From an uncultured bacterium (GTDB lineage: Bacteria > Armatimonadota > HRBIN16): a stretch of DNA of 62,709 bases. Each line of letters begins with the position of its first letter. The first letter of the stretch is position 1. The notes beneath the pieces were generated by a model that saw only the letters and a program-made list of their open reading frames with translations, made no database searches and was not told the DNA's origin. The DNA lies in the NCBI GenBank assembly GCA_938027655.1, contig CALJAP010000085.1, positions 1 to 62,709 of the forward strand, read 5' to 3'. This document shows, in pieces, positions 41,666 to 57,312 of this stretch. Both the position numbers and the translations under genes were made by a program.

Positions 41666-44305
41666 ATGTTAGCTCAGGAGTTACGCGAAAAATACCTGCG
41701 GTTCTTTGAGAGCAAAGGACACAGACGGTTTCCTTCAGATAGCCTTGTGCCCAACGACCCGTCGTTGCTGTTCACCAGCGCGGGCATGGTACAGTTCAAG
41801 CCCTACTTCCTCGGGCTGGCAACCCCGCCCCACACACGGGTCACAACGGTGCAGAAATGCCTGCGCACCACCGACATCGAGTCGGTGGGCGACCACTCGC
41901 ATCTCACCTTCTTCGAGATGCTGGGTAACTTCAGCTTCGGCGACTACTTCAAGCGCGAGGCTATCCTGTGGGCGTGGGAGTTCCTCACTGAGTGGCTGCA
42001 TATCTCACCTGACCGCCTGCGCGTTACCATCTACTTGGACGACGACGAGGCGTACGAGGTGTGGAATCGTGAGGTGGGCGTGCCCGACCGCAAAATCTTC
42101 CGCTTCGGTGAGAAGAGCAACTACTGGCCCGCCAACGCCATCTCGGAGGGTCCGAACGGTCCATGTGGTCCCTGTTCGGAAATCTTTTACGATACCCGTC
42201 CCGACCTGCCTCCCACCCCTGACGGTGTGTGGGACGACGTACGCTGGCTGGAAATCTGGAATCTGGTGTTTATGCAGTACGAACGGCACGACGGCGGCAG
42301 ACTCACCCCTCTGCCACGTAAGAATATCGACACGGGCATGGGGCTGGAACGCACCGCCGCCATCCTCGCGGGCAAGGCGAGCGTGTTCGATACCGACCTC
42401 TTTCAACCACTCATTGCGCGCATTGCCGACCTGAGCGGGCACGCCTACAGCGGTAGCGACTCCACAGAAGATGTTGCCTTCCGCCTGATTGCCGACCACA
42501 TCCGCGCTACCACCATGTCCATCGCCGACGGAGTGCTCCCCTCCAACGAGGGGCGTGGTTACGTGATACGGCGACTCCTGCGCCGGGCGATGCTGCGCGG
42601 GCAGAACGTACTGGGCTTTGACCGTCCCTTCCTCGCCGATGTGGCAACAGCGGTGATCGAAACGCTGGGCGAGGTGTATCCCGAGGTGCGCGAGCGACGC
42701 GATTATGTGCTGCGCACCATTCGCAGCGAGGAAGAACGCTTCCGCCAGACCATTCAGGTTGGTTCACAACGGCTGGCGGAGATGCTTGGGGCGTCCGAAG
42801 TGCAGAGGAGCAAGGTACTGCCCGGCGAGCAGGCGTTCATGCTATACGACACCTACGGTTTCCCCCTGGAGCTGACACAGGAGGTCGCCGCCGAGGCGGG
42901 TATCGGGGTCGATGTAGAGGGCTTCCGTCGGGCGATGGAGGAGCAGCGTCGGCGTGCTCGTGAAGCCAGCGGTATTGCCACACAGTTGTTCGCCATCGCG
43001 GGCGACGCTGCCACCGAACTGCAGAAAACGCTTCCGCCGACAAAGTTCCTGGGCTACCGGCAGCATGAGGCGGAAGCGAAGGTGCTCGCCATTATCCGGC
43101 AGGGAGAACCTGCCACTTTTGCCAGCGAGGGCGAAGAAGTGGAACTGGTGCTAGACCAGACCCCCTTCTACGCTGAGGCAGGCGGTCAGGTGGGCGACAC
43201 CGGATGGATACAGGGAAAAGACTTCCGGTTTGAAGTCAAAGATACCCAGAAGGTGGGCGACCTGTACCTGCACATCGGCATGGTGACGCGCGGACGTGTG
43301 GAGGTGGAAGCCCCCGTTTCCGCCCGCATCGACACGCAACGTCGCTGGCACATCATGCGCAACCACACCGCTACGCATTTGCTACATGCGGCGTTACGCC
43401 AGGTGCTGGGTTCGCATGTGCATCAAGCTGGTTCGCTGGTAGCACCCGACCGCCTGCGTTTCGACTTCACCCATACCAGCGCGATGAGCGAGGAGCAAAT
43501 CGCCGAGGTGGAACGTCTGGTGAACGAGCGTATCCTAGAAGACAAGCCGGTCATGGTACATTGGGACGTGCCGCTTGCGGAGGCGCGGGCGCGCGGCGCG
43601 ATGGCGCTGTTCGGGGAGAAGTACGGCGACACCGTGCGCATGATCGAGGTGCCCGGCGTGAGCCTGGAATTGTGCGGTGGCACGCATCTGGAACGCACCT
43701 CGCAGGTCGGGCTGTTCAAGATAGTGTCGGAGGAAAGTGTGGCGGCGGGCGTGCGCCGCGTCGAGGCGGTCACGGGTTGGGGCGCGTATCAGCTGATGCG
43801 CCAGCAACAGGAGCTGCTGGAGGAAGCGGCGGCGCGTCTGAAATGCGCGGTGTCCGACATCCCTGCGGCGATCGAACGTCTGCAGGCGCAGCGTCAGGAG
43901 ATGGAGAGGCAGATTCAGCAGCTACGCACCGGTGCGGCTGCCCGCTCCATGCAGTTCGAACCCGTCGAGCTGGCGGGGTTGCAAGTGGTTACCGGACGAG
44001 CCGACGGTGCAGACGCGCAGACGTTGGCTTCTCTGGCGGACCAGGCGGCACAGAAGGCATCAGTGGACCTGGTGGTGCTCGCTGCAGCAACCGACGGCAA
44101 GGCGCTGTTCGTGGCGAAGGCGAAACCCTCGGCGGTGGCAAAGGGGGTTCATGCCGGCAACCTGGTGCGCGAGCTGGCGAAAATCAGCGGGGGCGGCGGC
44201 GGCGGGCGTGCCGAGTTCGCTCAGGCAGGCGGGCGCGATGCTAGCAAAATCCCGCAAGCTTTGCAGCAGTTGCCCCTCCTGCTACAGCAGATGGTGGGAA
44301 GATAG
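41666..44305 (+). CDS. alaS: Alanyl-tRNA synthetase
   Basis: The 879-residue length is normal. The class II catalytic core contains HLTFFEMLGNFSFGDYFK and RRLLRRAMLRGQ. The editing domain has HTATHLLHAALR and CGGTHLERTSQVGLF, both with intact zinc ligands. The C-terminal DHHA1 domain ends with a Gly-rich SGGGGGGRAEFAQAGG. It charges tRNA-Ala and edits Ser/Gly mischarging. It is followed at once by a sigma-54 promoter and a noncoding RNA. Confidence 0.98.
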   Translation: MLAQELREKYLRFFESKGHRRFPSDSLVPNDPSLLFTSAGMVQFKPYFLGLATPPHTRVTTVQKCLRTTDIESVGDHSHLTFFEMLGNFSFGDYFKREAILWAWEFLTEWLHISPDRLRVTIYLDDDEAYEVWNREVGVPDRKIFRFGEKSNYWPANAISEGPNGPCGPCSEIFYDTRPDLPPTPDGVWDDVRWLEIWNLVFMQYERHDGGRLTPLPRKNIDTGMGLERTAAILAGKASVFDTDLFQPLIARIADLSGHAYSGSDSTEDVAFRLIADHIRATTMSIADGVLPSNEGRGYVIRRLLRRAMLRGQNVLGFDRPFLADVATAVIETLGEVYPEVRERRDYVLRTIRSEEERFRQTIQVGSQRLAEMLGASEVQRSKVLPGEQAFMLYDTYGFPLELTQEVAAEAGIGVDVEGFRRAMEEQRRRAREASGIATQLFAIAGDAATELQKTLPPTKFLGYRQHEAEAKVLAIIRQGEPATFASEGEEVELVLDQTPFYAEAGGQVGDTGWIQGKDFRFEVKDTQKVGDLYLHIGMVTRGRVEVEAPVSARIDTQRRWHIMRNHTATHLLHAALRQVLGSHVHQAGSLVAPDRLRFDFTHTSAMSEEQIAEVERLVNERILEDKPVMVHWDVPLAEARARGAMALFGEKYGDTVRMIEVPGVSLELCGGTHLERTSQVGLFKIVSEESVAAGVRRVEAVTGWGAYQLMRQQQELLEEAAARLKCAVSDIPAAIERLQAQRQEMERQIQQLRTGAAARSMQFEPVELAGLQVVTGRADGADAQTLASLADQAAQKASVDLVVLAAATDGKALFVAKAKPSAVAKGVHAGNLVRELAKISGGGGGGRAEFAQAGGRDASKIPQALQQLPLLLQQMVGR

Positions 44306-44319
44306 CAAAAATCGAAATG

Positions 44320-44344
44320 TTTTTTTGCTACAATCCTGCAAAAA
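44320..44344 (+). promoter_or_regulatory. Inverted repeat upstream of the sigma-54 promoter of the ncRNA
   Basis: TTTTTTTGC (44320-44328), 9 bases, then GCAAAAA (44338-44344) form an inverted repeat that ends 9 bases before the -24 element. The same arrangement occurs at 56133-56156. It is likely a regulator-binding site shared by both promoters. Confidence 0.6.
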
Positions 44345-44353
44345 CCGCCTCAG

Positions 44354-44369
44354 TGGTACGATTCTTGCT
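44354..44369 (+). promoter_or_regulatory. Sigma-54 (-24/-12) promoter of the ncRNA
   Basis: TGGTACG-N4-TTGCT matches the sigma-54 consensus TGGCACG-N4-TTGCW. The GG (44355-44356) and GC (44367-44368) are correctly 10 bases apart. The predicted start is near 44380, at GGAATGG. It shares CTATATATGG-like sequence after -12 with the promoter at 56166. Confidence 0.8.
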
Positions 44370-44379
44370 ATATATATGG

Positions 44380-44592
44380 AATGGAAACCCCGCAAGGCGG
44401 GGTGGGGTCAGGCACACCGCCGGTAACAATGACCGACGGTCTGTGCTGATAGGGCGCGAAAGCACTGGGTTTCGCGCCGGTGCGCCTGGACGCGCTTGGC
44501 GTCGGGCTGCGAAAGGGTGAAACATCACCCTTTCGCCTAACGGTGCACTCGCAATGCCGCCGGATGTTTCCATCCGGCGGTCTTCCCTTTTC
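44380..44592 (+). ncRNA. Candidate sigma-54-dependent structured noncoding RNA
   Basis: The roughly 213-base transcript would fold into at least five hairpins. These are 44387-44403 (7 bp), 44412-44446 (5+3+4 bp with small bulges), 44453-44478 (9 bp, GGCGCGAAA/TTTCGCGCC), 44489-44503 (5 bp) and 44509-44536 (12 bp perfect, GCGAAAGGGTGA/TCACCCTTTCGC). An intrinsic terminator ends it. No protein-like frame covers the region. It does not match 6S, tmRNA, SRP, RNase P or the cyclic-di-GMP riboswitch as I know them. Function is unknown; it may be a regulatory RNA controlled with the receiver-PilZ gene. Confidence 0.65.
44557..44592 (+). terminator. Rho-independent terminator of the ncRNA
   Basis: CCGCCGGATG, loop TTTC, CATCCGGCGG: a perfect 10-bp stem followed by TCTTCCCTTTTC on the plus strand. 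On the minus strand no T-run follows. Direction therefore supports a plus-strand transcript. Confidence 0.8.
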
Positions 44593-45740
44593 TATACATG
44601 TACGTTGAACAGCACGCCGATTAGATAGGTCAACACACCCACCACAAAAGCGATGGCAGTCATCTCCAGCCCGCTGACCCACCACTTGCGCGTAGTCACC
44701 AGACTCTTAGCTGCCCCCACCGCGAAGTGCGCCAGCACGCTTACGAACGCCGACCAGAATACCGCCATCCACCCCCGTGCGAAGAAGAACGGCAGCACCG
44801 GTATCAACCCACCAACGGCAGTGGATACCATCGACGACAGAAGCGAGACCCACGGATTGGGGAAGCTGGCTTCGGATAGTCCCAGCTCCTCATGCGCCAT
44901 CAGGCGCAGCATCTGGTCAGGCTTCTCTGCCAGCCGACGCGCCATTGCCTCCGCTTCCTCTTCGGAAAAACCCTTGAGCTGGTAGAACAGGCTCATCTCC
45001 TCAATCTCTTCTTCCGGGTTCTCGTGAAGCTCTCCGCGCTCGCGGGCAAGCTCCGCCTCGTACACCTCACGCTCTGACTTCGCTGCCAGAAAGGCGCCGG
45101 AGCCCATCGATAGCGCGCTGGCCAAAGTGCCCACCAGCCCAGCAATCAGCACCGTCTGGTGTCCAGCCGCGCTGCCCGCGCTGTAGCCCGCCATACCGGA
45201 TACAATGCCGAATACCGCGCCTAACCCATCGTTGATGCCGTAGATGGCATCGCCTATCCACGAGCCGCCGCGCACGTGCCAGTGTTCCCGCCGCAGGATG
45301 CGCTCCACCGGATGCTCCGTGCCCGAGGCGGAGTACAAAGCGTGTGTCATGTGAGCATGTTCCTCTTCATCTCGCATCACCCGCTGCGCGAGTTCTGCGG
45401 TACGTTCGTCGCCCATGTGCTGCATCTGCAGGTAGCGTGCCACTGCCTCGTCTTCATGTTCCTCCATCCGTCGCAGCACCATCTCAGGGCTTGCCAGATA
45501 CGCCTGCCAGCCGAACAGCGGTTTCACCTTACGAACCTGCGGCGGTTTGCCTCCCAACTCTACCAGTCGCTGGCTCCACTCCTCTGCGTGGCGGTCTTCC
45601 ACTTGCGCCAGCTGCTCCAGTATCTTCTTTTTGCGCGGGTCTTTCTCGCGTTTCGCCAGCAGGCGGTAGGTCTCTGCGCTGGACAGCTCGCCCCGAATCA
45701 CCTCTTCAATTGAAGCCTTCAATTTTGCATCGGCACCCAT
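44592..45740 (-). CDS. Membrane-bound ferritin / iron exporter, MbfA-like (erythrin-VIT1 fusion)
   Basis: The start at 45740 (MGADAKLKASIEEV) gives 382 residues. Residues 1-145 form a ferritin-like four-helix domain with di-iron ligands in IRGELSSAE, VEDRHAEEW, EEHEDEAVARY and RDEEEHAHM. A VIT1/CCC1 transporter domain follows with about five membrane segments (GDAIYGINDGLGAVFGIVSG, MGSGAFLAAKSE). This fusion is MbfA, which in alphaproteobacteria exports ferrous iron and is induced by iron. A palindromic AT-rich operator overlaps its promoter. The gene ends at the terminator of the convergent ncRNA. Confidence 0.9.
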   Translation of the reverse strand: MGADAKLKASIEEVIRGELSSAETYRLLAKREKDPRKKKILEQLAQVEDRHAEEWSQRLVELGGKPPQVRKVKPLFGWQAYLASPEMVLRRMEEHEDEAVARYLQMQHMGDERTAELAQRVMRDEEEHAHMTHALYSASGTEHPVERILRREHWHVRGGSWIGDAIYGINDGLGAVFGIVSGMAGYSAGSAAGHQTVLIAGLVGTLASALSMGSGAFLAAKSEREVYEAELARERGELHENPEEEIEEMSLFYQLKGFSEEEAEAMARRLAEKPDQMLRLMAHEELGLSEASFPNPWVSLLSSMVSTAVGGLIPVLPFFFARGWMAVFWSAFVSVLAHFAVGAAKSLVTTRKWWVSGLEMTAIAFVVGVLTYLIGVLFNVHV

Positions 45741-45760
45741 CGAACCGTCTTTTCTCCTTT

Positions 45761-45784
45761 TAATAATGATTCGCGTTATTATTA
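45761..45784 (-). promoter_or_regulatory. Fur/DtxR-like palindromic operator over the mbfA-like promoter
   Basis: TAATAATGATTC and GCGTTATTATTA form a near-perfect 24-bp inverted repeat 20 bases before the ATG. A minus-strand TATAAT (45786-45781) overlaps it. AT-rich palindromes of this kind are typical of Fur or DtxR-family metal repressors. Which regulator binds is not known. Confidence 0.65.
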
Positions 45785-45837
45785 TATCACATCCCCTGTG
45801 AAAAAGGGAACAGAGGATAGAAGAGTGGCTCTTTCTG

Positions 45838-52160: not shown

Positions 52161-52227
52161 TAAAGACCCGTGTTTGCATTGCCGATACCACAGTGTGCAC
52201 CGTTCAGAAATAAGAAGGCTGATTGCG

Positions 52228-54873
52228 ATGGACAACCATTCGTATACTGTCGAGACGCATTACGCTTTTATCCAGCGGCTACTTCATCAGATTGCATCGC
52301 GCACGGCGGACGCGGTGAGTGAGGCGCTGCTGGCGGAGGCTCAACAGTACTTTGTCGCCGTGCAGGCAGCGTTGTGGACGGTAGACGCCAGTACACACCA
52401 GGCGGTGCTGGTGAGCGTTGCGCCTTACCCCTTCTCCGACGACCACCTGCCCTTCGATGTGCTCATGGAGGCGGTGACAAAAGCAGCAAAAAAGGACGGT
52501 CCCTGTTGCGTCGAGCTGGGTGAACGGTATGGGTGGTTGCATTCTTTCAAGATAGAGCCTTACCGCGCGGTGTACGTGGTTAGCCTTGTCACCGAGGAGC
52601 CTTTGCCGGAATGCTTGCAGGAGGTGCTGCAGACATGGCTCATTCTTCTGCGCACCTCGGTTGCGCAGCTGCAGGCGCAGGCTCACCTCCGCCGGGTGCA
52701 AAAGCACAACGATAAGCGTCTGCAGGAGGTCACCGCGCTCTACGAGATCGGGCAGGCGATGGAGGGTGGCGACCTGCAGGTTCTGCTGGACATGATTACC
52801 CGCAAAGCGGCAGAGGTCATGGAAGCACAGGCGTGCTCGCTGATGCTTCTGGATGAGGACGGTCAAACGCTGGTCATTCGCTCCAGCTACGGCTTACCTA
52901 ATACGGTTATCGAGCAAACGCGCGTGCCGTGGGGACAGGGGATTGCGGGCAGGGTGGTCGCCAGCGGTCAAGCCATGTTGATTACCGACCCGCGTAAAGA
53001 CCCTCGCCTCGCCGGTGAAGACGTGCCGTACCGCGAGGACATCCAGGCGTCGCTCTGTGTGCCGTTGCGGGACAGCCATGGCGGGGTAATTGGGGTACTG
53101 AATATCCATCGGCGCAAGCCTGCTCCACTCTTTACCCAGCAGGATATGCGCCTGTTTAGCGTGTTCGCCATGCAGGCGGCGTCCGTTATCAAGTACGCAC
53201 AGATCCGCCGTGCCCTCATGTATCGGGTGCATGAGCTTTCGGTACTCTCCGAACTGAGCGCGGCGGTAAACTCCACGCTGGAGCTGGAACAGATACTGCA
53301 GCAAACCGCAGAGGGCATTGTGGAAACCGTGCGGTTCGACCGCTGCGCGATATTTCTGCTGGACGAGTCGGGTAAGCTGGTAACGCCCCGCGCGGTGCGT
53401 GGTTATCGCCCCGAAACACTGGGTAGCACGCCGGTTCGCGTGGCGGACGGCGTCATCGGGTTAGCGGTACGCAATAAGGAGCTGGTGCTGGTAGAGAACG
53501 CCCAGCAATCCAGCCAGCCCGCGCGAGGGTTTGGCAGGATGCTGGGCACCAATGCGTTTCTGGTCGCGCCCATTCTGGCACGCAACCGCGTAATTGGAGT
53601 GGTGGTTGCCGACAACAAACCCTCCGGGCGCCCTATTGACCGTGCTAATATCCAGCTGCTCACCACCTTCATCAACCAGGCGGGCATGGCTATCGAGAAC
53701 GCCCGTCTGTATCACGACCTGGACCGGCGATTTAACGAACTGCATAACCTGTGGGAGTACACGCGCAACCTGCTCAGCAGCATTGGTGTGGGCGTTGTGA
53801 GCATCGATAGAGAGGAGATTGTACTGACCTGGAACGATGCCGCCGAACGCATCACCACTGTACCTCACGAGAAAGCGCTGGGATACAAACTGGAGGACCT
53901 GTTTGCCCACTTTTTCCTGCCGGAAGAAGAGAAGAACATGCTTCTGGAGATTATCCGCTTCCCCTTCCAGACGGGCGAAAGACACTCGCGTTTCAAATGT
54001 GCTCTGCATCCCTATCAGCGCGGTGAGATGTACTTCAATTTTGAAAGTTCTCCCCTGCGTGCTCCCAACGGTTCCGTTCAGGGTGTGGTGTTTATTTTTG
54101 AAGACATCACGCACGAAGTGCGGATGGAGATGGAGGTGCAGCGCATCGGGCAGCTGGCAGCGGTTGGGCAGCTCGCCTCTACCATCGCCCACGAGTTGCG
54201 CAACCCGCTCAGCTCCATCCGTGCTTCCGCCCAGCACCTGCGCGGCGAATACGCCAGCAACCCCGAGCTGTGTGAGTTTCTGGACATTATCATCAACGAG
54301 GTGGATGTGCTGAACACCAAAGCCACCGAGTTCCTGCGGTTCGCCCGTCCTGTGGAACCGGTATTCCAGGAGGTGAACCTGTCCGACCTGATGAGCAGTA
54401 CCGTCCAGTTCATGCACTCCTATATCGAGGAGCAGGGGGTGCAGGTGGAGGTGGACGTTTCCGTGCCGTTTACCATCAAGGCGGACCCAAACCAGCTGAA
54501 AGAAGCTCTTCGCAATCTGATTATCAACGCGGTGCAAGCCATGCCGGAAGGTGGAACCTTGTCGCTTATCGCCACACCCGCCCCAGGCGACACGGTAAAT
54601 ATTATCGTCAAGGACACGGGAGTTGGGATACCGCCCGAAAATATGGACCGTATCTTTACGCCGTTTTACACTACCAAAGCCAAAGGGTCGGGGCTGGGGC
54701 TGGCAAACGTCCAGAAGATTGTGGAAAGCCACGGCGGTACTATTCGCGTGCACAGCCGGGTGGGTGAAGGAACCGAGATGCGTATCACTCTGCCGGTGCA
54801 CCCGGTGCGTCGCATCCGCCGCATTGAGCTGGGAGACGATGACAATCTGCGCACCAGAATACCAGACCTCTAA
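52228..54873 (+). CDS. Soluble sensor histidine kinase with GAF and PAS domains
   Basis: An 881-residue kinase with no membrane segment; the start may also be 52174. Residues 1-160 are of unknown fold. Two GAF domains follow (e.g. ITRKAAEVMEAQACSLMLLDE and RFDRCAIFLLDES), then a PAS domain (SSIGVGVVSIDREEIVLTW). HisKA has the phospho-His near residue 655 (STIAHELRNPLSS), and HATPase has NLIINAVQAMPEGG and KDTGVGIPPENMDRIF. This is the NtrB/PilS-like class. It lies 28 bases upstream of an NtrC-type regulator, so they form a two-component pair. Confidence 0.93.
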   Translation: MDNHSYTVETHYAFIQRLLHQIASRTADAVSEALLAEAQQYFVAVQAALWTVDASTHQAVLVSVAPYPFSDDHLPFDVLMEAVTKAAKKDGPCCVELGERYGWLHSFKIEPYRAVYVVSLVTEEPLPECLQEVLQTWLILLRTSVAQLQAQAHLRRVQKHNDKRLQEVTALYEIGQAMEGGDLQVLLDMITRKAAEVMEAQACSLMLLDEDGQTLVIRSSYGLPNTVIEQTRVPWGQGIAGRVVASGQAMLITDPRKDPRLAGEDVPYREDIQASLCVPLRDSHGGVIGVLNIHRRKPAPLFTQQDMRLFSVFAMQAASVIKYAQIRRALMYRVHELSVLSELSAAVNSTLELEQILQQTAEGIVETVRFDRCAIFLLDESGKLVTPRAVRGYRPETLGSTPVRVADGVIGLAVRNKELVLVENAQQSSQPARGFGRMLGTNAFLVAPILARNRVIGVVVADNKPSGRPIDRANIQLLTTFINQAGMAIENARLYHDLDRRFNELHNLWEYTRNLLSSIGVGVVSIDREEIVLTWNDAAERITTVPHEKALGYKLEDLFAHFFLPEEEKNMLLEIIRFPFQTGERHSRFKCALHPYQRGEMYFNFESSPLRAPNGSVQGVVFIFEDITHEVRMEMEVQRIGQLAAVGQLASTIAHELRNPLSSIRASAQHLRGEYASNPELCEFLDIIINEVDVLNTKATEFLRFARPVEPVFQEVNLSDLMSSTVQFMHSYIEEQGVQVEVDVSVPFTIKADPNQLKEALRNLIINAVQAMPEGGTLSLIATPAPGDTVNIIVKDTGVGIPPENMDRIFTPFYTTKAKGSGLGLANVQKIVESHGGTIRVHSRVGEGTEMRITLPVHPVRRIRRIELGDDDNLRTRIPDL

Positions 54874-54901: not shown

Positions 54902-56122
54902 ATGACAATGAAGGTAAAAACAGCGACAGAGAAACCAACACCGTTGACCCTGCTTATCGTGGAAGACCAGGCCAGTCACCGTCGTGTACTGGAGGCGCAC
55001 TTCTCTAAGCAATACGATGTGCTCACCGCCGAGCACGGTCAGCGTGCGCTGGAAATCGCTTCACAGCGGCCTGTTGACCTGTTGATTGTCGATCTGATTC
55101 TGCCCGGTGCGATGAACGGAATGGAGGTGCTGCAAAAGATTCGCGAGATGTATCCGGACGTAATGGCTATCATGATTACCGCGCATCCTACCGTTCGCAC
55201 AGCGGTACAGGCGATGAAAGATGGCGCGATAGACTATATCGAAAAGCCTATCGACCTAGACGAGCTGAAAACAATGGTGGACAGAGCAGCCGAGCAGTAT
55301 CGCCGCAAGCAGGAGGAAGCTCTACTCCAGCCTCAACACAGCGGCACTCTCGATCTGCAAGGTATTGTGGGCACCAGCGAGGCGATGCAGAAAGTGTATA
55401 GGATGATTGCGAAGGTCGCGGCGAGTAATGCAACCGTACTGATTCGCGGTGAAAGCGGTACCGGAAAGGAGCTGGTCGCCAAAGCCATTCATCGCAATAG
55501 CAATCGGGCGAACGGGCCGTTTATCGCCGTGTCCTGCGCCGCGCTACCGGAGACCTTGCTCGAAAGCGAGCTGTTCGGGCACGAGAGGAACGCTTTCACC
55601 GGCGCAACGTCACAAAAGCCGGGCCGGTTCGAACTGGCACACAAGGGCACCCTGTTCCTTGATGAAGTGGCAGAGATTAGTCCTGCTATTCAGGTGAAAT
55701 TGCTGCGCGTGCTGCAGGAACAAGAGTTCGAGCGGCTGGGTGGCACCAAGCCGATTAAAGTGGATGTACGCCTGCTCGCCGCCACGAACAAAAACCTAAA
55801 GGAGATGGTGAACAACAAAACCTTCCGCGATGACCTGTACTATCGCCTGCACGTCATCGAGATTTACCTGCCTCCCTTGCGCGAACGAACGGAAGACATT
55901 CCGCTTCTGGTGGAACACTTTCTGAATCATTACGGCAGGGAGAACGGCAAACGGCTCAAATCCGTTGCCCCCGAAGCGATGCACATCTTGAGGAACTACC
56001 ACTGGCCCGGCAACGTGCGCGAGCTGGAAAACGTCATCGAACGGGCGGTTGTGCTCGCTGACAGAGACACAGAACTGCTTACGCCCGACCTCTTGCCGGA
56101 TTCTATCACCAAGACAGTGTAA
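54902..56122 (+). CDS. NtrC-family sigma-54 activator lacking the DNA-binding domain
   Basis: The start at 54902 follows AAGGGGGG; the product is 406 residues. The receiver domain has phospho-acceptor Asp64 (LLIVDLILPG) and Lys in YIEKPID. The AAA+ domain has Walker A GESGTGKE (183-190), Walker B LFLDEVAEI and arginine-finger region FRDDLYYRL. The sigma-54 contact loop reads NAFTGA (230-235) instead of GAFTGA. It ends at PDLLPDSITKTV, without the usual Fis-type HTH of about 60 residues. DNA-binding-free activators are known (FlgR of Helicobacter, CtcC of Chlamydia). A sigma-54 promoter lies 44 bases beyond its stop. Confidence 0.92.
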   Translation: MTMKVKTATEKPTPLTLLIVEDQASHRRVLEAHFSKQYDVLTAEHGQRALEIASQRPVDLLIVDLILPGAMNGMEVLQKIREMYPDVMAIMITAHPTVRTAVQAMKDGAIDYIEKPIDLDELKTMVDRAAEQYRRKQEEALLQPQHSGTLDLQGIVGTSEAMQKVYRMIAKVAASNATVLIRGESGTGKELVAKAIHRNSNRANGPFIAVSCAALPETLLESELFGHERNAFTGATSQKPGRFELAHKGTLFLDEVAEISPAIQVKLLRVLQEQEFERLGGTKPIKVDVRLLAATNKNLKEMVNNKTFRDDLYYRLHVIEIYLPPLRERTEDIPLLVEHFLNHYGRENGKRLKSVAPEAMHILRNYHWPGNVRELENVIERAVVLADRDTELLTPDLLPDSITKTV

Positions 56123-56165: not shown

Positions 56166-56181
56166 TGGTACGGAACTTGCA
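56166..56181 (+). promoter_or_regulatory. Sigma-54 promoter of the receiver-PilZ gene
   Basis: TGGTACG-N4-TTGCA, with GG at 56167-56168 and GC at 56179-56180, 10 bases apart. The predicted start is near 56192, leaving a 107-base leader before the ATG at 56299. Confidence 0.8.
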
Positions 56182-56298: not shown

Positions 56299-57312
56299 AT
56301 GCCCAGAGTGCTGATAGCGGACGATGAGACGAACCTGTGTAAGGTGCTGGCTGCAAGGTTGCAGCAAAGTGGATTGCAGTGCGTGATTGCGCATGACGGT
56401 ATGCAGGCGCTGGAACTCCTCCGCTCACAACCCATCGATGTGGCGGTGCTGGACGTACGGCTCCCGCGCAAGAACGGTGTGCAGATACTGCGCGAAATCC
56501 GGCGAGACAATCCGCAGCTCCCTTGCGTGCTCATCACTGCTTTCGAGGACATCGAGTTACACGAGGAAGCGGCGCGTCTGAGAGCGAATGCTGTTTTGCA
56601 GAAGCCGTTTGACCTGGAAGCGTTCACCGAGCTTATCTGGAGGGAGATCAGCGCCCCTGCCTCCACGACGGGAGCGCCCATGCTGCTGCAGAACGGCGAG
56701 AAGGTGATTGTGGACATCCGGCGAGGCGAGTGGTCGTATACCTATGCACCGCGCGTCATTTCGCAAGACGACCGCATACTGGAGATCGAACCGCCGCTGG
56801 CAGTAGTGGATACAGAGGTGTTGTCGCAAGGGGTAGCTATTGTTCAGTTTACGCGTGGGGATGGCGTATACCAGTTTCGTTCGCGCATCGAGTTGGCTAC
56901 CACTCCCCGACAAGCGTTGTATCTGCGCAAGCCGGTCGCCATTCGTCGCCTGCAACGCCGCAAGCACCCACGCATTGCGGAAGAGGGACAGGTCAGCATC
57001 GTGTTTTCGTTCCGGGAGGAACGTGAGGCTGCTCCACTGACGCTTACGGGCGAACTGTACGACCTGAGTCACGGTGGTTTCTCCGTGTTGTTGTCGCAGG
57101 CGCCGCCCGTTGGCGAAGAGGTCTCCTTCCAGATGGCGCTACCCGAGGCAAACCTTACCCTCATCGGGCAAGCGCGGGTGGTGCATGTGGGCGGGATGAT
57201 TGCCGACAGGGTACCGGCGGTTTATCACGCAGGGCTGAGGTTCACCCGACTCGCGCCCGCCATGCGGCAAGCACTGGCGGAATGGGTGGAGAGGCTGTTG
57301 AAACAGGCGTGA
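56299..57312 (+). CDS. Response regulator with receiver and PilZ domains (cyclic-di-GMP effector)
   Basis: A 337-residue protein. The receiver domain carries phospho-acceptor D52 (VLDVRLPRKNG), acidic pair D8-D9 and a Lys in LQKPFD. A YcgR/PilZN-like region follows (residues 130-215). A PilZ domain has the RxxxR motif in LQRRKHPRIAE and DLSHGGFSV (D/NxSxxG), the cyclic-di-GMP ligands. It probably changes motility or surface behaviour on cyclic-di-GMP and phosphorylation signals. It is driven by a sigma-54 promoter, next to a kinase and sigma-54 activator. Confidence 0.93.
   Translation: MPRVLIADDETNLCKVLAARLQQSGLQCVIAHDGMQALELLRSQPIDVAVLDVRLPRKNGVQILREIRRDNPQLPCVLITAFEDIELHEEAARLRANAVLQKPFDLEAFTELIWREISAPASTTGAPMLLQNGEKVIVDIRRGEWSYTYAPRVISQDDRILEIEPPLAVVDTEVLSQGVAIVQFTRGDGVYQFRSRIELATTPRQALYLRKPVAIRRLQRRKHPRIAEEGQVSIVFSFREEREAAPLTLTGELYDLSHGGFSVLLSQAPPVGEEVSFQMALPEANLTLIGQARVVHVGGMIADRVPAVYHAGLRFTRLAPAMRQALAEWVERLLKQA

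Follow-up and report, generated by a model that had tools for sequence, protein, structure and literature searches.

A candidate sigma-54-driven regulatory RNA in the exosortase regulon of an Armatimonadota genus

Directly downstream of alaS in an uncultured member of the Armatimonadota lies a predicted noncoding RNA, structured and about 205 nt long (positions 44380 to 44592, + strand). On balance, this RNA is likely to be a trans-acting regulator of an exosortase/exopolysaccharide regulon, made from a sigma-54 promoter of its own. The window, meaning the whole stretch of 62,709 nt that was analysed, is one contig of a 3.5-Mb genome. The lineage probably belongs to hot-spring Armatimonadota, a habitat read from the names of its relatives; the relatives so named, found by exact-pattern matches, are metagenome assemblies and include HRbin16 and a Chthonomonadia bacterium.

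Exosortase/PEP-CTERM systems are widespread among environmental biofilm and floc formers. To our knowledge, a regulatory RNA has not been described for any exosortase system, and this RNA would be the first candidate. What appears to be new is the RNA family and its exosortase link, while the sigma-54-driven small RNA is a known kind. A conserved RNA in a matrix regulon would add a post-transcriptional layer, and the present case would add the Armatimonadota, with a differently built activator, to the groups whose matrix proteins are under sigma-54 control. One activator and one regulon would also make a clean system for asking what a sigma-54 RNA does.

Structure and conservation of the RNA

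The sequence from 44381 to 44592 folds at -117.9 kcal/mol, against -85.7 ± 4.7 kcal/mol for dinucleotide shuffles (z = -6.9), and none of 200 shuffles folded as well. Six hairpins are predicted on the + strand: H1 (44387 to 44403), H2 (44411 to 44447), H3 with a variable loop (44453 to 44478), H6 (44484 to 44507), H7 with 12 pairs (44509 to 44536), and a terminator hairpin, H8, with 11 pairs (44556 to 44581), followed by CTTCCCTTTT. H6, H7 and the unpaired CUAACG (44537 to 44542) belong to a near-invariant core (44480 to 44546), which has 44480 to 44483 and 44543 to 44546 as its closing strands. An earlier first-pass annotation of this DNA had counted five strong hairpins, one of them with 12 pairs; the 12-pair hairpin was recovered, while the count has to be raised to six. 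It had also called the terminator textbook. The 3' hairpin does score as terminator-like, but the T tract is interrupted and the adjective is too strong.

The same annotation had proposed covariation in the stems as a check, and compensatory changes are clear: both sides have changed in 24 of the 70 pairs across nine homologues, all from genomes of one genus, so that the covariation comes from related sequences. There were 39 compensated cells, compared with 11.0 ± 2.7 in shuffles (0 of 500 as high), and structures slid along the alignment gave at most 10 pairs with both-side changes. H1, H2 and H7 are well supported, with both-side changes in 4 of 7, 7 of 14 and 7 of 12 pairs, respectively. 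Support for H3 (2 of 8 pairs), H6 and H8 (three pairs) is partial, because large parts of these hairpins never vary. The core's short closing helix is compatible with the nine-sequence alignment but unproven; it showed no compensatory changes there. An alternative closing helix, GUGCGCC/GGUGCAC, was rejected, since one of its pairs is broken in four of the nine sequences with no compensation. The core around CUAACGGUGCA, which includes H6 and H7, is nearly invariant, and the hairpin loops vary freely. Identity of the core to the window copy ranges from 0.72 to 0.95; at fourfold-degenerate sites of alaS the range is 0.50 to 0.77.

The RNA and its promoter are found beside alaS, in a single copy, in nine of the ten genomes of the genus. 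A covariance model built from these nine sequences scores 156 to 239 bits, with one match in each of the nine. The tenth genome (G008) is 77% complete and lacks not only the RNA, but also the activator discussed below, an exosortase and CsrA; absence of the RNA there is thus uninformative. In the 281 other genomes of the phylum (291 were searched in all), the model returned nothing convincing, the best score being at most 31 bits. The out-of-genus matches inspected were terminator-like GCCGCCGGAG hairpins, and the core motifs were absent from all seven out-of-genus loci checked. One such hairpin matched by the model (L114, G026:C25) adjoins a CRISPR-like array with the repeat GTTTCAATCCGCACTCAAACGCGGGTTCATTTCTAC.

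A coding function was rejected, as there is no conserved reading frame in the RNA among the homologues, which agrees with the earlier statement that no protein frame spans the region. The statement that the RNA matches no familiar class also held: Rfam 15 gives it no match at gathering or relaxed thresholds. Across the window the sole match passing the gathering scores was a tRNA elsewhere, and the best sub-threshold match to the RNA reached 16.7 bits where 65 are required. 6S RNA (RF00013) was rejected as an identity, with no covariance model match. As a separate observation, the Rfam 6S model has no match in any of the ten genus genomes; a 6S RNA in this genus may be highly divergent or missing altogether.

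The 5' neighbour is indeed alaS (41666 to 44305, + strand, 943.6 bits). The convergent gene on the other side (44592 to 45827, - strand) had been called an iron exporter, and this is sustained only as an MbfA-like arrangement of a ferritin-like and a VIT-like membrane domain by weak similarity: its best MbfA match has 21.5 bits where the cut-off is 450, and the matches to TIGR00267 and Dps have 40 and 25.6 bits, respectively. The C-terminus of its product is kept next to the RNA in the homologues.

The promoter and its regulon

The -24/-12 element TGGTACGATTCTTGCT (TGGTACG-N4-TTGCT; 44354 to 44369, + strand), followed by ATATATAT, is kept in all nine homologues. Counting from the -12 C at 44368, transcription is predicted to start near 44380, seven bases 5' of the first hairpin. 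Its distance to the RNA is constant in the nine homologues, and the near-consensus promoter at the expected distance, claimed in the first-pass annotation, is borne out. The alaS stop codon lies 48 nt from the TGG of the promoter here, and 48 to 49 nt in eight of the nine genomes. This genome has 12 copies of the motif TGGYACGANTCTTGC, and the genomes of the genus have 4 to 21 each, while the reversed pattern occurs 0 times; judged on these counts, the promoter of the RNA is more than a chance motif match. The rpoN gene is present once in each of the ten genomes. The features by which a sigma-54 small RNA is recognised are therefore found together: a conserved -24/-12 promoter, correctly spaced from the 5' end of the RNA, and a conserved fold that ends in a terminator and has no conserved ORF.

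The promoter does not stand alone. In an ungapped alignment of 78 sites, a dyad, AAAAATTT-N3-AAATTTT, is centred about 38 nt 5' of the TGG at a fixed distance; CAAAAACCCC lies immediately 5' of the -24 element, TATATA lies 3' of the -12 element, and the transcripts share the start GGnTGGAAA. The window contributes its own site to this upstream pattern (44303 to 44353). Here, the A/T-rich dyad takes the form TAGCAAAAA-N8-TTTTTTTGCTA (44303 to 44330, + strand), begins within the alaS stop codon, and sits at the register of the conserved element of the other regulon promoters. Dyad, promoter and hairpins all lie on the + strand between alaS and the convergent gene, in line with the earlier statement that all elements share one strand. 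Fixed spacing is atypical for enhancer sites, and the dyad and CAAAAACCCC may instead reflect curved DNA or contact with the alpha subunit.

The sites of this type precede a recognisable set of genes. ORFs with a PEP-CTERM-like tail (for example VPEPGGLLALGTGIAGLLGYSVRRRR) lie directly behind 23 of 79 distinct sigma-54 sites, a count that rests on a simple pattern and includes some sites at contig ends; several of the tails, among them the IPDAST type, were identified from a pattern and by eye, with no family model. Other sites precede operons for polysaccharide export (Wza-like) and genes for an exosortase together with EpsI-like and Wzc-like proteins, for CspA, and for an RR-PilZ protein, a response regulator carrying a PilZ domain. 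All nine RNA-bearing genomes have a sigma-54 site roughly 200 nt 5' of an exosortase gene. An exosortase/PEP-CTERM system is present in this genome by TIGR02602 (172.7 bits, cut-off 105.55) and PF09721 (207 bits), and TIGR02595, the PEP-CTERM model, exceeds its cut-off in several proteins. By its sequence and register, the RNA promoter is placed within a genus-wide sigma-54 regulon for exosortase, exopolysaccharide export and PEP-CTERM proteins.

Several observations concern the edges of this regulon. At least four genomes have a sigma-54 site in front of cspA (at L072, L045, L052 and L057), an unusual type of promoter for this gene; CspA apart, no RNA-binding protein was seen in the regulon. 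Genes for RHS/YD-repeat-like proteins also follow regulon sites (L077, L086 and L019). At L071, the site is followed by a frame that ends in VIPEPSTAATDLTGSALLVLRYRRRS and has no evident start codon, and at L088 only by the end of such a PEP-CTERM frame; both look like remnants of a decayed PEP-CTERM gene. Outside the genus, TGGYACGANTCTTGC is frequent in a few genomes, such as G013 and G051 (both of another family, f5), which have 16 and 11 copies, respectively, but not this RNA. These copies probably mark a related regulon. The RNA is confined to one genus, while sigma-54 regulation of PEP-CTERM genes is wider, a point that counts against the preferred reading.

The activator and comparison with known systems

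The only strong PF00158 match in the genome is an activator gene in the same window, 11 kb from the RNA (54914 to 56122, + strand). Its Pfam domains are Response_reg, Sigma54_activat and AAA_lid_14, and HTH_8 is absent. The protein ends after the AAA+ lid, with no DNA-binding domain, in nine of nine genomes. Each of the nine RNA-bearing genomes has one strong sigma-54 activator, a count bounded by the completeness of the assemblies. The first-pass annotation mentioned neither this activator nor the exosortase/PEP-CTERM regulon. The adjoining gene for a GAF-GAF-PAS histidine kinase (52228 to 54873, + strand, start site inferred) encodes the probable sensor feeding the activator. Directly 3' of the activator gene, a second sigma-54 promoter, TGGTACGGAACTTGCA (56166 to 56181, + strand), is kept in nine of nine genomes and precedes the RR-PilZ gene (56299 to 57312). 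The presence of this gene in the regulon suggests a link between c-di-GMP and the matrix regulon.

By analogy with known proteins of this build, an activator with no DNA-binding domain should reach every sigma-54 promoter from solution, which would account for a single promoter type serving a single coherent regulon. We infer that the activator controls the large exosortase/PEP-CTERM regulon. CtcC of Chlamydia and FlgR of Helicobacter are activators of this kind (PMC7482065, PMC3162934), likewise combining a response regulator and an AAA+ domain with no C-terminal DNA-binding domain; the present case comes from another phylum and is tied to a regulon for exosortase and matrix proteins.

In the reports found, PEP-CTERM genes under sigma-54 control have been described in Proteobacteria (PMC1569441, PMC9850573). 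There, a sigma-54 PEP-CTERM box is associated with PrsK-PrsR, the conserved DNA motifs being confined to that group (Haft et al., PMC1569441), and RpoN dependence of a PEP-CTERM gene has been shown (PMC9850573). Our system resembles PrsK-PrsR in its sigma-54 sites before PEP-CTERM genes, its tandem kinase and activator genes, and its exopolysaccharide link. However, PrsR is of Fis type, with a DNA-binding domain, and its upstream motif 1 varies in distance; the activator found here has no such domain, and the upstream A/T dyad keeps a fixed distance. The activator scores 415.8 bits against PrsR (TIGR02915, cut-off 502.6) and lacks the C-terminal Fis-type domain, and the kinase, which is of GAF type, scores 103.9 bits against PrsK (TIGR02916, cut-off 300). 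An identity with PrsK/PrsR was rejected, since both proteins fall under the curated cut-offs and the activator has no DNA-binding domain.

Among sigma-54-driven small RNAs, GlmY/GlmZ, Qrr (with LuxO) and Pxr of Myxococcus are known. The earlier description of such RNAs as rare is right in that they are uncommon, but they are an established kind. Transcription of glmY is sigma-54 dependent (PMC3162934), and pxr adjoins a gene that encodes a sigma-54 response regulator (PMC5568312). Like these, the present RNA is intergenic, has its own sigma-54 promoter and a terminator, and sits in a network of surface or social behaviour. Unlike them, it is about 205 nt long with six hairpins and an invariant folded core, has no Rfam match, and is associated with an activator with no DNA-binding domain and with an exosortase regulon. 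In the parts of the literature available to us that join PEP-CTERM, small RNA and RpoN, the only item was a mapping of two-component regulators in a sulfate reducer.

Mode of action and alternative readings

A trans-acting post-transcriptional role is usual for RNAs of the GlmY, Qrr and Pxr kind. In the scheme that we infer for transcription of the RNA, for the wiring of kinase, activator and promoter, and for its trans action and target, the kinase would phosphorylate the activator, which would drive all sigma-54 promoters of the genome. Because of the common promoter type and the single activator, the RNA should be made whenever the matrix regulon is, and its level would rise with the matrix genes. 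It would then act in trans, most likely post-transcriptionally, to adjust or limit regulon output, its invariant core (the H6/H7 junction and CUAACGGUGCA) serving as the binding site for a protein or for target mRNAs. The wider proposal, of a new regulatory RNA class in which an invariant multi-branched core sets exosortase/PEP-CTERM output and transcription depends on sigma-54 and one activator able to do without a DNA-binding site, is offered tentatively.

The search for pairing partners bears on how the core might work. No conserved perfect antisense site (11 matches) to the invariant CUAACGGUGCA segment was found; perfect sites besides the RNA itself are scattered, and fewer than for the reversed control. 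Duplex energies of four accessible RNA segments with 19 leaders (of regulon, kinase and activator genes) were no better than those of shuffled segments. The invariant segment resembles a folded core, not an open seed, and protein or ligand binding would fit equally. A protein partner is, for this reason, a serious rival: the H6/H7 junction might dock Hfq, CspA, CsrA or another protein and sequester or scaffold it with no base pairing. Conservation in the folded core with loops free to vary, the lack of a conserved antisense target, cspA behind sigma-54 sites in four genomes, and the presence of Hfq (10 of 10 genus genomes) and CsrA (9 of 10) all speak for such an RNA, although its partner is hypothetical, and this reading is rather unlikely. 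The version in which it titrates CsrA is disfavoured by the lack of a conserved GGA in a hairpin loop; a CsrB/RsmZ-type sponge was rejected, as repeated loop GGAs are absent and the conserved GGAs lie only in stems.

Two readings would dispense with a regulatory RNA in trans. The RNA follows alaS immediately, on the same strand, and one terminator could serve both, so that the region might be a structured 3' end of alaS with a fortuitous promoter motif. Against this, nine of nine genomes keep the promoter, which belongs to a set of a dozen near-identical sites whose flanking elements stand at constant positions, and the conservation of the core exceeds what a terminator needs, making it very improbable. 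A mobile or repeated element with inverted repeats could account for the several hairpins and for the recurrence of the promoter part in the genome, but only the promoter recurs: the RNA is single-copy at one fixed locus in nine of nine genomes, and on that ground the element was rejected, with next to no weight left to it.

A further rival to the preferred reading, a trans-acting regulator of the regulon, is a Qrr-like feedback in which the RNA would pair with the leader of the kinase mRNA and repress the kinase of its own activator. The segment AACGGUGCAC pairs perfectly with GUGCACCGUU at about 52196 to 52205, 20 to 30 nt 5' of the kinase start (10 contiguous pairs). A second block adds 6 to 7 pairs, for a total of -23.3 kcal/mol, which ranks among the top 0.3% of 2500 windows; no other leader tried in this genome paired more strongly. 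G003 and G004 retain part of the site, but it is not kept in G006, G007 and others (fractions of windows as good: 0.96 and 0.59), and it was found after many leaders had been tried. Conserved pairing with an mRNA of its own circuit, as in Qrr, is thus strong only here and in near relatives. The feedback is improbable as it stands, and the pairing is kept as a lead and not as an explanation because it fades in the other genomes.
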